Shown piece after piece: positions 24,686 to 64,000 of a DNA stretch of 64,000 bases (positions are counted from its first letter, which is position 1; every line of letters begins with the position of its first letter). The notes beneath the pieces are model-generated. The model saw only the letters and a program-made list of their open reading frames with translations. It was not told where the DNA came from and did no database searches. The DNA is taken from positions 1-64,000 of the forward strand of contig JAPPIT010000142.1 of the NCBI GenBank assembly GCA_028820505.1, read 5' to 3'. The DNA comes from Defluviicoccus sp. (lineage in GTDB: Bacteria > Pseudomonadota > Alphaproteobacteria > MPNO01). The translations under genes were made by a program, and so were the position numbers.

Positions 24686-25384
24686 CTAGGTACCGAAATA
24701 GGCGGCCGCGATCCGGTCCCGCGTCAGGTCCCCGGGCGCGCCGGTGAGCGCGAGCCGGCCCTCCTGGAGGCAATAGACCCGGTCGGCCACCTCGAGGGCG
24801 CGGTTGATGTCCTGCTCGACCACCACCATCGCGGTCCCTTCCGCCTTGATGACGGGCAGCACCTCGTAGATTTCCCTGACCACCACGGGCGCGAGCCCGA
24901 GCGACAATTCGTCGAACAGGATCAGGTCGGGGTTCGACATCAGGGCGCGGCCGATGGCGGTCATCTGCTGCTCGCCGCCGCTGAGCGCGGTGCCGGGGAC
25001 CGAGCGCCGGTTGCGCAGCGCCGGGAACAGCTCGTAGACGCGCTCCAGCGACCAGCTTCCCGGCCGGCCGCTGTAGCTGCCGATGATCAGGTTCTCCTCG
25101 ACGCTAAGGCTCGGGAACAGGCGGCGCCCTTCCGGCACCATGGCGACGCCGAGGGCGACGATCTCGGCGGCCTCGCGGAACTGGATGCTGTCCCCGCGAT
25201 AGGACAGGACGTCGCTGGTCGCTTCGACCATGCCGGTGATCGCCCGCAGCAGCGTCGTCTTGCCGGCGCCGTTCGCGCCGATCGCGGCCACCGTCTCGTG
25301 CGCGTCGAGGTCGAAATCGAAGCCGAAAAGGGCCTGGAAATCCCCGTAGAACGCGTCGAGGTTGCGGATCTCCAGGAGGCTCAT
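24686..25384 (-). CDS. ABC transporter ATPase (LivF-like), system 1
   Basis: A 232-residue ATPase of a Liv-type importer. Walker A is GANGAGKTTLL at about residues 36 to 46, the signature is LSGGEQQM near 135, and Walker B is DLILFDELSLGLAP near 154 to 167. The N terminus MSLLEIRNLDAFYG is typical. Its ATG overlaps the end of livG by 4 bases. Full length with all catalytic motifs, so it is functional as far as sequence shows. Confidence 0.95.
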   Translation of the reverse strand: MSLLEIRNLDAFYGDFQALFGFDFDLDAHETVAAIGANGAGKTTLLRAITGMVEATSDVLSYRGDSIQFREAAEIVALGVAMVPEGRRLFPSLSVEENLIIGSYSGRPGSWSLERVYELFPALRNRRSVPGTALSGGEQQMTAIGRALMSNPDLILFDELSLGLAPVVVREIYEVLPVIKAEGTAMVVVEQDINRALEVADRVYCLQEGRLALTGAPGDLTRDRIAAAYFGT

Positions 25385-26106
25385 TCGACGGCGATCCCGA
25401 GATAGACCTCGCGCACCGCCGGATTGTCGATCACCGCCTGCGGGTCGCCCTCATCCAGCTTCCTGCCGAAATCGATCACCACCAGCCGGTCGACTACCGA
25501 CATCAGCGCATGCACGATGTGTTCGACCCAGACGATCGAAACGCCATGCCCTCTGATGTCGCCGATGGTGGCGACGAGTTCGCGAATCTCGTGCTCGGTC
25601 AGACCGCCGGCGATCTCGTCCAGCAGCAGGACGCGCGGGCGGGTCGCCAGCGCGCGCGCCATTTCGAGGCGCTTGCGCTCCAGGAGGGTCAGCGAGCCGG
25701 CGAGCGCGTTCGCCTTGGATGCAAGCCCGGTCTGCTCCAGAACCTCGACGCAGTGATCGTAAGACGCCGCCTCGGACTGCCCGGCGCCGAACGCGCCGCC
25801 GACCAGCAGGTTCTCGAACACCGTCATCCCGCGGAACGGGTGGGGGATCTGGTAGGAGCGTCCGATCCCGGCGCGGCAGCGGAGATGGGCCGGCAAATGG
25901 GTGATGTCCTCGCCGGCGAACAGGATCCTGCCGTCGTCGGGCGGCAAGCTGCCGGTGATCAGGTTGAAGAGCGTGCTCTTCCCCGCGCCGTTGGGGCCGA
26001 TAATGCCGAGCGCCTCGCCGTCATCGAGCGCCATGTCGAACGAATCGACCACCAGGAGCGAGCCGAAGCTCTTGGACAGGCCCTCGACCGAGAGAATCGC
26101 GGTCAT
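25381..26106 (-). CDS. ABC transporter ATPase (LivG-like), system 1
   Basis: A 241-residue ATPase. Walker A is GPNGAGKSTLF near residues 38 to 48 and Walker B is RVLLLDEIAGGL near 158 to 169. The ABC signature is divergent: LTLLERKRLEMARAL stands where LSxGxxRRLE is expected, a form seen in a subgroup of LivG proteins. The N-terminal part binds the permease side through the usual Q-loop (IGRSYQIPHPF). It overlaps livF by 4 bases. A structured repeat separates it from the binding-protein gene upstream. Confidence 0.94.
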   Translation of the reverse strand: MTAILSVEGLSKSFGSLLVVDSFDMALDDGEALGIIGPNGAGKSTLFNLITGSLPPDDGRILFAGEDITHLPAHLRCRAGIGRSYQIPHPFRGMTVFENLLVGGAFGAGQSEAASYDHCVEVLEQTGLASKANALAGSLTLLERKRLEMARALATRPRVLLLDEIAGGLTEHEIRELVATIGDIRGHGVSIVWVEHIVHALMSVVDRLVVIDFGRKLDEGDPQAVIDNPAVREVYLGIAVE

Positions 26107-26116
26107 GGCGCGGGCC

Positions 26117-26208
26117 GTCCCTCAATACGGCCCTCCGGGCCTACTCGGGATGAGGCCATTCCCTATTCCTCATCCTGAGTAGCCCTCGAAGGCACCGTAT
26201 CGAAGGCG
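26117..26208. repeat. Structured palindromic repeat, copy 1
   Basis: About 92 bases with outer arms (CCCTCAATACG and CGTATCGAAGG type), inner complementary blocks CTACTCGGGATGAGG and CATCCTGAGTAG, and two small hairpins (GGCCC-TCC-GGGCC on the left, GCCCT-CGA-AGGC on the right). The same architecture occurs at 45777 and 62659. This copy lies between the ABC binding-protein gene (stop at 26224) and livG (start at 26106). It may affect the mRNA level of one relative to the other. Confidence 0.85.
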
Positions 26209-26223
26209 CGCGCCGGCACCTCT

Positions 26224-27522
26224 TCAGCTCAACGATTCGAGCTTGCCGGTCAGCGGGATATTCTTCGCCCGTTCGTTGTGCACGACCTCGAGCTCATACT
26301 TGAACTTCTTGCCGCGCTTCCACTGACCGCCGACCAGCGGCGTGCGGCAGGCGTTCTTCACCGGGTTCCGGGCGTCGCCGAACTTCCATGAGACCGGCCC
26401 GACGATCGACTCGTAGTTGGTATTTTCGATCGCGTTCAGTATGGCGTTCGGATCGCCTGGGTCCCCGCAGCGCTTCAGCACGTCTATCGCCACCTCGATG
26501 TTGGCGTGCTTGAAGCCGAGGGGCTGGGTCCATTGCCGTCCGGTCTTGGCGGTATAGGAATCGGCGTACTCGCGCGAAGACTGGCCGGTCAGGTTGGACT
26601 TGAAGGGGTGGGAAGACGACCACCACACTTCCGTCGTCAGCCCGTGGCCGCGCTCTCCGAGCGCCTCGACCGCCGGCGGGAACAGCAGCGCCTTGGCCAT
26701 GGTTCCGGCCTTGAGCTGCTTGATCAGCCCCTGCTGCGCCGCCTGGGTCCAGAAAGTCGAGAAATCGGGCGGCGTCGCGATGCCGGTAAGGATCTCGACG
26801 CCCTCCTTCTTGAACTCCGCGATCTGGGCGGTGAAGTCCGGACTTCCCATCGAAAACAGGGGCGGCTGCAAATACTCGAACCCGCGGGCCTCCATGGGCG
26901 GCCTGAAGCCGCGCTTGGGGTCGCCGCCGTTCACCCCATCCTCGCTGTTCTCGATCAGGCTGCCGATCTTCTTGTTGGTGCCGAGCGCATCCCACATGTC
27001 CATGAAGATGCTGAACATGTCCTCGAAGCCCCAGAAGAAGTGGTAGGTCCACTTGAAGGGCTTGTCGGGCGTTGCACCGCGGCCGAAATAGACGATCTGC
27101 CACGGCGTATCGGCGGTGACGCAAGGCACCTCGTTGGCCTCCGCCTGGTCCGACACCGGGTTGACGGTGGTGCCGCTCGACGAGCCGATCATCAGATTGA
27201 CTTCGTTCTTGAGGATCAACTCCGCAGCGACCTCGGCGGCCCGGTTGGGGTTGGACTGCGAGTCGCGGGAGATGATCTCGACCGGGTACTTCTTCTTGCC
27301 GATCGCGATCCCATCGCCGATCGCCGCGCGCGCGTCGGCGAGGACGAACCGGTCGGCCTCGCCGAAGGCGGCGAGCGGGCCCGATTGCGGGCTGACGAAG
27401 CCGATCTTGACCGGCCTGGTGGCGGCGTGGACGGCGGGCGCCGGCAAGCCCGACGCCGCGGCCGCGGCGAGCACGCCGCCGCCGTATTTGAGGGCGCGCC
27501 GGCGACCGATCTTGGATTTCAT
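26224..27522 (-). CDS. ABC substrate-binding protein (Tat-exported), system 1
   Basis: About 432 residues, a periplasmic type-1 binding protein of the Leu/Ile/Val-receptor family. The start was set at ATG 27522 (MKSKIGRRRALKYGGG), which has an AAAAGGGAA ribosome site; an earlier ATG in the frame is 9 codons upstream. The N terminus is a twin-arginine signal (GRRRALKYGGGVLAAAAASG) cut near AVHAA. The mature part starts PVKIGFVSPQSGPLAAFGEAD. It is probably the receptor for the Liv system 1. Aromatic-catabolism neighbours suggest an aromatic acid ligand; this is inference. Confidence 0.93.
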   Translation of the reverse strand: MKSKIGRRRALKYGGGVLAAAAASGLPAPAVHAATRPVKIGFVSPQSGPLAAFGEADRFVLADARAAIGDGIAIGKKKYPVEIISRDSQSNPNRAAEVAAELILKNEVNLMIGSSSGTTVNPVSDQAEANEVPCVTADTPWQIVYFGRGATPDKPFKWTYHFFWGFEDMFSIFMDMWDALGTNKKIGSLIENSEDGVNGGDPKRGFRPPMEARGFEYLQPPLFSMGSPDFTAQIAEFKKEGVEILTGIATPPDFSTFWTQAAQQGLIKQLKAGTMAKALLFPPAVEALGERGHGLTTEVWWSSSHPFKSNLTGQSSREYADSYTAKTGRQWTQPLGFKHANIEVAIDVLKRCGDPGDPNAILNAIENTNYESIVGPVSWKFGDARNPVKNACRTPLVGGQWKRGKKFKYELEVVHNERAKNIPLTGKLESLS

Positions 27523-27576
27523 CGCGGTTCCCTTTTCGCTCTTTGGCATTTGGGCTCTCCCCTGTGTTTGTAAGAA

Positions 27577-45747: not shown

Positions 45748-45776
45748 CGCGATTTCATTCCCGATGGAATCCCGGC

Positions 45777-45886
45777 GACGCGTCCCTCGATACGGCCCTT
45801 CGGGCCTACTCGGGATGAGGGACTCTTTCACGCATCCCCTCGCCCTGAATAGCCGCGAAGCGGCGTATCGAGGGGCGGGACGCGTC
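45777..45886. repeat. Structured palindromic repeat, copy 2
   Basis: About 110 bases bounded by the inverted pair GACGCGTCCC (45777 to 45786) and GGGACGCGTC (45877 to 45886). Inside are CCTCGATACGG and CGTATCGAGG arms, CTACTCGGGATGAGG opposite CCTGAATAG, and two hairpins (GGCCC-TTC-GGGCC and GCCGC-GAA-GCGGC). The same family occurs at 26117 and 62659. It fills the gap between the malonyl-CoA decarboxylase and the molybdenum hydroxylase gene. Reading it as protein gives a spurious C-terminal tail on an overlapping frame. Confidence 0.9.
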
Positions 45887-45897
45887 AACCGGGGCAC

Positions 45898-62118: not shown

Positions 62119-62652
62119 TCAGCCGGCGCCGGGTGCGGAAGGGAGCCCGGCGTCGTCCGCGGCCTCGGCTCCGGCGGCGACGCGGACCGCACGGACCCAC
62201 TGGATCGCCAGCGCGGCGAGCATGACCAGCGAGCACAGCACCATGACGACCGTCACCGGCCACAGCGGTATTTCCCAGATCTGGGTCAGGTCGCCCTTGC
62301 TCCGCTGGGCCGCCGCCCACTCGGCGAGACGCCAGCAGATCAGCGCGACGAAAAGCAGCGACACCGCGTAGGTGATGCTGTCGAACGCCGCCCGCCAGCG
62401 CGGCGGGAGATGCGAGATCACGATGTCGACCCGGGTGTGGCCGCGCAGGAACGTGGTCAGGCCGATCGCCAGGAACACCGTGAGCCCCATCAGCAGCTCG
62501 GTCGCCTCGACCTTGGCGGTGACCGGCGCGGACAGCAGCTCCCGGCCCAGCACGTCGACGAAGGTCAGCAGCGTCATCGCCGCGAGCGTCGCCGCGCCGA
62601 GCCAGGCGAGCCGCGAGGAGGCCCGCCCGGTCAGCGCGGAGAACCGCGACAT
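62119..62652 (-). CDS. TRAP transporter small permease (DctQ-like)
   Basis: A 177-residue four-helix subunit, with membrane segments near residues 14 to 32, 48 to 66, 88 to 106 and 132 to 152. The loop FLRGHTRVDIVISHLPPRWR after the second helix is the family hallmark (G-x-x-R-V-D). It is transcribed between the binding-protein gene and DctM. A structured repeat lies just upstream of its start, inside the operon. Confidence 0.92.
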   Translation of the reverse strand: MSRFSALTGRASSRLAWLGAATLAAMTLLTFVDVLGRELLSAPVTAKVEATELLMGLTVFLAIGLTTFLRGHTRVDIVISHLPPRWRAAFDSITYAVSLLFVALICWRLAEWAAAQRSKGDLTQIWEIPLWPVTVVMVLCSLVMLAALAIQWVRAVRVAAGAEAADDAGLPSAPGAG

Positions 62653-62658
62653 GCCGGC

Positions 62659-62753
62659 GTCCCTCGATACGGCGCTTCGCGCCTACTCGGGATGAGGGTT
62701 CGCGGAAAGCTCCCCCTCACCCTGAGTAGCGGCGAAGCCGCGTATCGAAGGGC
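62659..62753. repeat. Structured palindromic repeat, copy 3
   Basis: About 95 bases with CCCTCGATACGG and CGTATCGAAGGG arms, CTACTCGGGATGAGGG opposite CCCTGAGTAG, and two hairpins, GGCGC-TTC-GCGCC and GCGGC-GAA-GCCGC. Against copy 2 both hairpin stems differ by paired changes that keep pairing. It lies between the DctP binding-protein gene and the DctQ gene of the TRAP operon, a position equivalent to that of copy 1 in the ABC operon. Confidence 0.9.
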
Positions 62754-62773
62754 GCGCCACGGCGGAGCGGCGG

Positions 62774-63787
62774 CTACCGGATCGACTTCACCGTCGCCTT
62801 CAGGTCGGCCAGCAGCGCCTCGCCGTCATGGCCGGCCTTCTTCATCTTGGCGAGATAGTCGACGACGATCTTGTCGGTTCTCGCCGACCACTTCTTGAAC
62901 TCCGCCGGCGTGATCTCCTCGATCGTGTTCCCGTTGTCCCTGGCGATCTGCATCCCGATCTTGTCGCCCGCGTCCCAGTGCTTGCCGATCAGCTTGGCGC
63001 CGGCGCGGCCGCCCGCCTTGGTCAGCGCGTCCTGTGCGTTCCGGCTCAGCGAGGCCCATTTCTTCTTGTTCATCGTCAGGAAGAAGGGAACCGTGTAGAG
63101 CCCGCCGGGCACCATCAGGTGATGGGTGACGAGCTTCTGCAGGCGGAACCCCCTGATCGCCTCGAACGGGAAGAACGCGCCGGCGGTGATGCCGCGGAGC
63201 AGGCTCTCATGCGCCTTGGTCGCCGGCATCGCGACCGGAACCGCGCCCAGCTGCTCGGCGAGGAAGATGCCGCCGCCGCCGACCCGGAGCTTGACCCCTT
63301 TCAGGTCCTCGAGGGTGGCGATCCTCTTCTTGGTGTGGAGCACGCCCGGCCCGTGGACCCAGACGGTGAGCAGGTGGGTGTCCGCGAACTCCTTTTCGAC
63401 CAGGCCGTTCTTCTCGTACCACATCCAGGCGGCCTGGCTGCCCACCTCGGCGCTCGGCGACAGGAACGGGATCTCCCACAGCCGCAGCGCGACGAAGCGG
63501 CCCGGGGTATAGGCCGGCACGCCCCAGGTAACGTCGCGGATGCCGTTGACCGCGAGGTCGTACTGCCCGGGCGGTTTGGCCAGCGCCGTCTTGTCGACCG
63601 TCAGCGTCAGCTTCCCGCCGGACGCCTTTGTCGCCGAGGCGGCCCAGTCGGCCAGGGTGTTCGTCATGTGGTGCACCGACGGCACCCAGTTGGCGATCCG
63701 CACGGTTTCCGCCTGGGCGGGAACCGCCGCGAGCGCCGCGGAGGCGGCGAAGGCCCCGGCCGCGAGATACCTGAACGTTCCGGACAT
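62774..63787 (-). CDS. TRAP transporter substrate-binding protein (DctP-like)
   Basis: About 337 residues; the start ATG 63787 (MSGTFRYLAAGAFAASAALAAVPAQAE) has an AAAGGGAG site. Residues 1 to about 26 are a Sec signal peptide cut at AQA-E. The family feature is the carboxylate-binding Arg in the VKLRVGGGGIFLAEQLGAVPVAMP region near residues 162 to 185. It captures a solute, probably an organic acid, for the DctQM subunits downstream. Upstream, 52 bases separate it from a TauD-like gene. Confidence 0.93.
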   Translation of the reverse strand: MSGTFRYLAAGAFAASAALAAVPAQAETVRIANWVPSVHHMTNTLADWAASATKASGGKLTLTVDKTALAKPPGQYDLAVNGIRDVTWGVPAYTPGRFVALRLWEIPFLSPSAEVGSQAAWMWYEKNGLVEKEFADTHLLTVWVHGPGVLHTKKRIATLEDLKGVKLRVGGGGIFLAEQLGAVPVAMPATKAHESLLRGITAGAFFPFEAIRGFRLQKLVTHHLMVPGGLYTVPFFLTMNKKKWASLSRNAQDALTKAGGRAGAKLIGKHWDAGDKIGMQIARDNGNTIEEITPAEFKKWSARTDKIVVDYLAKMKKAGHDGEALLADLKATVKSIR

Positions 63788-63839
63788 GGTGACTCCCTTT
63801 CTTCCGTTGGGTTTCCGCATCGCTCCCGCGGCCGCGCCG

Positions 63840-64000
63840 TCAGGACAGGCGGATGCGTTCCGCTGTGTCCGCGAGCCTGACGCCGCGGCGCCACTGTAGC
63901 GCATAGGCGTTGGGCGGCCGCAAATCGTCGTTGGCGAGCCACAGCCGCCACAGCAGCCGCTTCCGGTCCTTCTCCGGCCAGTCCTCGTACGCGTCGCGGG
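63840..64000 (-). CDS. TauD/gamma-butyrobetaine hydroxylase-like oxygenase, C-terminal part
   Basis: The last 52 residues of a gene that continues beyond the window edge: YEDWPEKDRKRLLWRLWLANDD, RPPNAYALQW and RRGVRLADTAERIRLS. The E-x-W-P-E-x-x-R-K-R-x-L-x-R-LWL pattern is typical of the C terminus of TauD-superfamily dioxygenases (taurine catabolism or gamma-butyrobetaine hydroxylase type). The 2-oxoglutarate and iron motifs lie outside. It shares direction with the TRAP operon downstream, so the imported solute might be its substrate; this is inference. Confidence 0.65.
   Translation of the reverse strand, partial: RDAYEDWPEKDRKRLLWRLWLANDDLRPPNAYALQWRRGVRLADTAERIRLS

Follow-up and report, generated by a model that had tools for sequence, protein, structure and literature searches.

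The window, meaning here the whole 64,000-nucleotide stretch of Defluviicoccus DNA that was analyzed, contains three copies of an element of ~95 nt. An earlier note on this DNA had described three structured repeat copies starting at positions 26117, 45777 and 62659; all three are present and are matched by a covariance model (R1), with copies 1 and 3 starting where reported and copy 2 starting at 45782 instead. The copies, the parts of copy 3 and the neighboring genes are as follows.

25381..26106, minus strand: ABC transporter ATPase gene, branched-chain amino acid type, downstream of copy 1
26117..26209, plus strand: copy 1, A half first, between the periplasmic-binding-protein gene and the ABC ATPase gene
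26224..27549, minus strand: Peripla_BP_6 substrate-binding protein gene, upstream of copy 1 in reading direction
45782..45877, plus strand: copy 2, A half first, 34 bp past the end of a malonyl-CoA decarboxylase gene
62119..62652, minus strand: DctQ (TRAP small membrane subunit) gene, downstream of copy 3
62659..62754, plus strand: copy 3, A half first, 19 bp behind dctP and 6 bp before dctQ
62659..62670, plus strand: outer arm of half A, copy 3, GTCCCTCGATAC
62671..62683, plus strand: hairpin A, copy 3, GGCGC TTC GCGCC
62684..62697, plus strand: inner arm of half A, copy 3, TACTCGGGATGAGG
62715..62728, plus strand: inner arm of half B, copy 3, CCTCACCCTGAGTA
62729..62741, plus strand: hairpin B, copy 3, GCGGC GAA GCCGC
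62742..62754, plus strand: outer arm of half B, copy 3, GTATCGAAGGGCG
62774..63904, minus strand: DctP (TRAP substrate-binding protein) gene, upstream of copy 3

R1 scores copy 1 at 63 bits (26117-26209; E 2e-13), copy 2 at 92 bits (45782-45877) and copy 3 at 100 bits (62659-62754), and the next-best match in the window has an E value of 0.008. Since all three copies belong to the 31-copy alignment (A1: 30 BLAST loci and the oldest window copy) from which R1 was built, independent support comes from repetition of the element across the genome; a fourth copy lies ~1 kb past the window end (C173:64984-65081). The hairpin letters reported earlier are correct: the left hairpin reads GGCCC/GGGCC in copies 1 and 2 and GGCGC/GCGCC in copy 3, and the right hairpin reads GCCGC/GCGGC in copy 2 and GCGGC/GCCGC in copy 3. 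Two small hairpins had been ascribed to all three copies, which is so for copies 2 and 3 but not for copy 1, an old copy whose right (B) hairpin has decayed to GCCCTCGAAGGCACC and forms no full stem. Copy 2 has an extra inverted pair outside its ends (GACGCGTCCC / GGGACGCGTC; window 45774-45892) that lengthens the outer stem.

Anatomy and copy number of the repeat

The element is composed of two unlike inverted half-units (A and B), which together give, in order from the outside in, an outer stem, hairpin A, an inner stem of 14 columns and a variable spacer (mostly 11-28 nt), with hairpin B on the opposite side; the resulting four-way junction leaves no bases over. The ends are sharp, roughly (C)GTCCCTCGATAC ... 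GTATCGAAGGGCG. In alignment A1 half A carries CCCTCG and CTCGGGATG at fixed places, and half B, read in reverse, carries CCCTTCG and CTCAGGGTG; this unlikeness of the halves results in two fixed mismatches and two G-U pairs per strand. The outer arms are of A/B type in 56 of 70 parsed copies (CTTCG/CTTCG in 5, CCTCG/CCTCG in 1), and exact inner-arm pairs of A/B type occur in 32 of the 70. Of 75 elements from other assemblies, 52 have A/B outer arms and 7 have A/A; this set was collected with an A-side pattern and is therefore informative about arm type on the partner side alone. The tetranucleotide GTAG stands beside the hairpin (A1 columns 80-83 hold G, T, A and G in 29, 30, 31 and 30 of 31 copies; the complement, in columns 27-30, is found in 31, 31, 28 and 31), faces inward and runs on into the 14-nt paired arm. 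Helical phasing of spacer length was considered and rejected: lengths peak at ~15 and 26-27 in the genus itself and at ~15, 26-27 and 38-43 in other assemblies, and the steps are irregular. Hairpin B of one locus (L232, C85:19472) and hairpin A of another (L235, C200:3365) are enlarged by what appear to be different small palindromes.

When copy 2 was used as BLAST query against the genome that the window comes from, at least 74 rows were obtained (40 of 100 candidates scored). With R1 at E<=1e-3 the same genome yields at least 142 rows, which, as a palindrome is matched on both strands, collapse to at least 78 places; this copy number is a lower bound, with 150 of 6494 first-look candidates scored. 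In pieces of this genome, 70 forward halves lie no more than 60 nt from a partner, and the 10 halves without one are part of decayed or interrupted doublets of the 78-copy list, so that the doublet is the unit.

REPINs are REP doublets that form hairpins (Bertels and Rainey, 2011, PMC3116915), and as described there they resemble the element in having two inverted REP units as the repeated unit (here 70 paired vs 10 unpaired), a variable spacer, conserved ends, paired stems and intergenic dispersal. The element is a variant of this REP-doublet kind: its anatomy is that of a REPIN, but no RAYT was found for it, its halves are systematically unlike, its GTAG faces inward by each hairpin with extra arms outside, and its clover fold is supported by covariation. 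The GTAG REPs, especially GTAG-14 of Bradyrhizobium and Rhodopseudomonas (Di Nocera, 2013, PMC3733652), also share much with it, namely a hairpin with GTAG next to it, alternative GC-rich stems that show complementary changes, occurrence as dimers, alphaproteobacterial hosts, and a preference for sites downstream of genes and between convergent or unidirectional genes. In that account, however, GTAG is unpaired at the unit end and dimers mostly have it outward, whereas in the element it is paired and inward, and GTAG families are often associated with a RAYT, unlike the element; for GTAG-14 the comparison is with its published description only. CGTC REPs, as described in the same paper, are likewise mostly alphaproteobacterial and mostly dimers, include many heterodimers and have no known dedicated transposase, but their layout differs, each being a tagged single stem of 8-9 bp with a loop of 4-5 bases and a CCA-like tail (PMC3733652). 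Br-REP1 and Br-REP2 of Bradyrhizobium (PMC5082802) are alphaproteobacterial palindromes in 3' UTRs, and Br-REP1 has flanking palindromes, a further likeness; the consensus letters printed for them do not match the element. No published description of this exact repeat was found in the literature searched, which omits most subscription papers. CGTC-REP-like repeats of the CGTCATGCCCGGACTTGTTCCGGGCATCCACG type also occur in the genome, in L233, L217 and L220 (right flanks C32:151, C149:98 and C193:10323), and a CGTC-REP-like repeat is present in L205, at the copy-2 site.

Covariation within the two hairpins

In alignment A1, 98.1% of cells pair (95.2% when shuffled), and changes on both sides of a pair are found in 22 cells (6.3 when shuffled) and at 6 pairs (2.6 when shuffled), a number that none of 500 shuffles reached; the covariation score is 0.081 vs 0.035. 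Every one of these double-sided changes lies in the two hairpins, the stems outside them being nearly invariant and thus carrying little covariation information. In the 70 copies that fitted the parser (8 of the 78 did not and were left out of the pairing test), hairpin A pairs with itself at 341 of 350 positions and hairpin B at 339 of 350, compared with 311.9 and 272.7 in shuffled sets, and none of 2000 shuffles was as high for either. Cross-pairing between hairpins A and B shows no excess (488 vs 487.3 in shuffled sets; 944 of 2000 as high). A replicate of 75 elements from 10 other assemblies gave the same picture, with 370 of 375 self-pairs for A and 369 of 375 for B (the replicate parser forced one G..C pair per hairpin) and 504 of 750 cross-pairs vs 520.6 in shuffled sets, again without excess. 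The paired substitutions pointed out in the note are thus real and numerous in all three sets (31 copies, 70 copies and 75 elements), and the search for further copies with a covariance model, proposed there with the proviso that copies lacking compensatory changes would speak against the idea, brought up copies that have them.

Judged from this pattern, the conserved fold is a clover (four-way) and not one long hairpin. Energy folding prefers the latter: when the top strand was folded as RNA, 43 of 70 copies had the long hairpin as their lowest-energy fold and 26 had the clover, and DNA parameters gave the same result. The clover thus rests on covariation and not on energy; covariation was given the greater weight because it records what was kept. 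Complementarity of the flanks past the element ends shows no excess over shuffles in 75 copies. The note had also held the family to be more than a plain REP-like sequence; as a separate class this does not survive comparison with REPINs, for which compensatory stem changes and a clover fold, the latter proposed from structure prediction, have been described (PMC3116915). Covariation within but not between hairpins, in two sets of copies, amounts to a direct sequence test of that clover proposal.

Mobility and the search for an enzyme

Seven of eight sites compared between congeners are polymorphic for presence of the element. All four congeners carry copy 1 at the corresponding position. Copy 2 is absent from the orthologous site in 4 of 4 congeners and copy 3 from that in the three congeners whose flanks were found, with no R1 match at either site. 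Elsewhere in the window's genome, the copy at C135:74906 is absent from 3 of 3 congeners, that at C135:87469 from G003 and G005, and that at C135:81774 from the same two but present in G004. Conversely, two copies of G004 (C280:1672 and C223:16184) are absent from the window genome, the first being absent from 4 of 4 genomes including it. These lineage-specific insertions suggest recent activity. Insertion joints are blurred, since the intergenic DNA has diverged and some sites have gained or lost 20-40 extra bases, and excision and insertion are therefore seen in outline rather than base by base. No target duplication was found in 75 copies (3 of the 78 were left out) at lengths of 2-9 and offsets of 0-3.

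These results bear on whether the element could be a MITE, its outer arms serving as terminal inverted repeats (TIRs) for a DDE transposase that has matching ones. Dispersal and sharp, conserved inverted ends are what such an origin would give, but the lack of duplications and the conserved internal structure disfavor it: the inner arms and the pairing of the hairpins are kept as strongly as the ends, and a substrate recognized by its TIRs needs neither. Nor is there a transposase among ten ORFs found between distant half-units in other assemblies, and a DDE-type MITE is accordingly very improbable. The ORFs come from a set of nine candidate spans between widely spaced half-units, eight of which were examined (a 108-base span in L057 was left out, and a 387-base span in L084 has no ORF of 120 aa); as the ten, from seven spans, correspond to ordinary enzymes, ankyrin repeats, a MatE transporter or nothing, an autonomous long version of the element was rejected. 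At the site of C223:16184, G003 (L255, C105:5300-15300) has A and B halves ~4.4 kb apart in place of the plain 95-nt copy of its congener; the spacer may have taken up an insertion, or the whole may be a composite element.

For a REP doublet the expected mover would be a RAYT, and the element might be a classic REPIN mobilized by a RAYT that has been lost or that the draft genomes fail to show. REP-doublet anatomy, the conserved GTAG by each hairpin and compensatory hairpin changes like those in PMC3116915 all fit, and E. coli genomes without a RAYT gene are described as keeping many REPINs (PMC8049555). However, the profile of the Y1 transposases (PF01797) finds nothing in the window's own genome or in any of six family genomes, among them the five genus genomes that carry the repeat, draft bins of which four are 100% complete by estimate. 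A RAYT-like protein, taken as query from the order's one genome with both repeat and Y1, gives chance matches only (E 0.1 and 0.48), in 2 of the 5 genus genomes. Across 27 genomes of the order R1 matches occur in 7 and Y1 in 9, with both in 1 (Fisher p 0.36); the flanks of the 9 Y1 loci contain no convincing repeat (best E 0.014). An associated RAYT, a defining feature of REPINs, was thus not found; the genomes are drafts, so this is not absolute, and draft bins can miss multi-copy insertion sequences, but RAYTs are described as single-copy genes (PMC8049555), which such bins should keep. Together with the signs of recent activity, these searches do not support a RAYT as mover in the genus and make a lost or overlooked one unlikely. 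That the family is polymorphic in a genus where no RAYT could be detected suggests either a different mover or a recent loss.

On balance, the element is probably a non-autonomous repeat of the REPIN/BIME kind that is moved as folded single-stranded DNA by some other enzyme, and it may have a passive RNA effect at 3' ends. This enzyme, encoded outside the element, would cut and join the folded strand, recognizing the invariant arms from their sequence and the hairpins from their shape; this would explain why the hairpin letters drift in pairs. The mismatch between A and B may keep the palindrome imperfect and hence less prone to deletion. With regard to the claim that paired substitutions imply selection on structure, pairing has indeed been kept; selection for a role in RNA does not follow, as the element moves and lies in both orientations relative to genes, and the covariation would fit folded single-stranded DNA recognized in transposition at least as well.

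The A-half pattern was found in at least 106 stretches of the species collection, mostly from Rhodospirillaceae, Defluviicoccus and unnamed alphaproteobacterial bins; the matches listed also include bins named Nitrospinota or Nitrospinae (15 loci among the 106 listed), a Rhodovibrio bin and a Rhizobiales bin. R1 confirmed many of the 80 stretches to which it was applied (134 rows, both strands). By a strict pattern on one strand, the full element is present in 3 of the 15 Nitrospinota/Nitrospinae-named loci, whose G+C content is 0.56-0.65 vs a median of 0.679 for the other 91 listed, and the Nitrospinota-named bins carry the same A/B heterodimer as the Rhodospirillaceae and Defluviicoccus bins. 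Taking the bin names as given, transfer across phyla is a lead that these matches provide; many of the repeat-carrying bins are, we assume, sponge bins. A plasmid search with the element gave no match. It is conceivable, though doubtful as a whole, that the repeats form a RAYT-free REPIN-like family read by a new enzyme as a single-stranded DNA clover (arms by sequence, hairpins by shape), and that this family has crossed phyla in sponge microbiomes.

On the B side, ten copies directly adjoin a second repeat that starts roughly (A/C)TTATA..GACTACTTGACAG. The sites (L020, L155, L226 and others) include C56:16402, C27:9166, C220:11319, C95:28145, C176:67, C20:52, C32:151 and C193:10323. At C56 and C27 the second repeat forms a longer inverted-repeat element of ~260 bp or more. 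Several of the sites are no more than 150 bp from a contig end, which suggests that the assembly broke at them.

Placement at gene ends

A gene end faces 67 of the 78 copies at a median distance of 12 bp, and 46 of the 67 are within 20 bp, a closeness to stop codons that is due in part to short intergenic gaps. Copies lie between co-directed genes in 29 cases, convergent genes in 28 and divergent genes in 10, and the remaining 11, at ends of contigs or pieces, were left unclassed. No copy lies entirely within a called gene, and 2 overlap one by >30 bases (genes were called with a simple home-made codon score and not with a published gene finder). Of the 67 classed copies 28 are in convergent gaps, compared with 20 convergent gaps among the 173 other gene pairs in the same pieces (Fisher p 1e-6), and the enrichment holds against the gene pairs of the window alone (p 0.001). 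The orientation of the element relative to the genes is mixed.

This placement could mean that the element is an RNA element selected by the host, its clover kept as a 3'-end stabilizer, processing site or bidirectional end, and its mobility incidental. Besides the copies behind stop codons and between convergent genes, the copy-1 locus is in favor. Across five species the compared sites there differ by 7% in outer arm A, 13% in inner arm A and 21% in inner arm B, against 59% in the spacer, the upstream flank, mostly coding, differing by 13% (these figures cover the regions named; outer arm B and hairpin B, mis-parsed in one genome, G002, were left out, as were the downstream flanks). The letters of hairpin B also differ among copy-1 orthologues and yet pair in several. 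But the comparison covers one locus shared by all, where ongoing conversion from other copies would look alike, and most of the copies compared are not conserved, given the polymorphism of 7 of 8 sites. The mixed orientation speaks against such an origin too, as does copy 3, the one copy scanned for a T-run terminator-like site, which has none. Host selection as the primary cause therefore seems rather unlikely. Searches against Rfam gave no match at the gathering score in the window and four repeat-bearing pieces (near copy 2, E 0.8-3.8).

For the folded-DNA repeat favored above, a role in RNA at 3' ends is plausible as a passive consequence, going by position and predicted structure. Transcription through a copy inserted behind a stop codon would be predicted to give the upstream gene's message a stable 3' structure, and 3'-to-5' decay of that message would thereby be slowed. 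Such structures protect the mRNAs of binding proteins, as in E. coli malE-malF (PMC5927463), where a stable structure likewise lies between the genes of a binding protein and a membrane component; there the 3' structure is described as protecting the mRNA, whereas the present element is known from sequence alone. By analogy, where a copy separates the gene of a binding protein from that of its membrane partner, more binding protein would be made per channel.

Among 57 genes that end within 60 bp of a copy and were scanned (of 69; 12 truncated genes were left out), the commonest family is DctP (4), and among 33 that start within 150 bp after a copy (of 42; 9 truncated genes left out) it is DctQ (4); the same four copies, between dctP and dctQ, account for both counts, an excess seen after the fact and without a matched control. 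The genome has 51 DctQ matches; R1 was run on 30 of these loci and found a copy at 2, and with 2 more identified by coordinates at least 4 of the 51 DctQ genes have one. The junction of binding-protein and ATPase genes holds one copy, copy 1, which is common to all four congeners. If placement behind binding-protein genes changes expression, insertions would be a ready source of variation in transporter stoichiometry. The copy at C135:81774 (L218:9275-9381), common to one congener, lies 12 bp behind recA and before the alanyl-tRNA synthetase gene.
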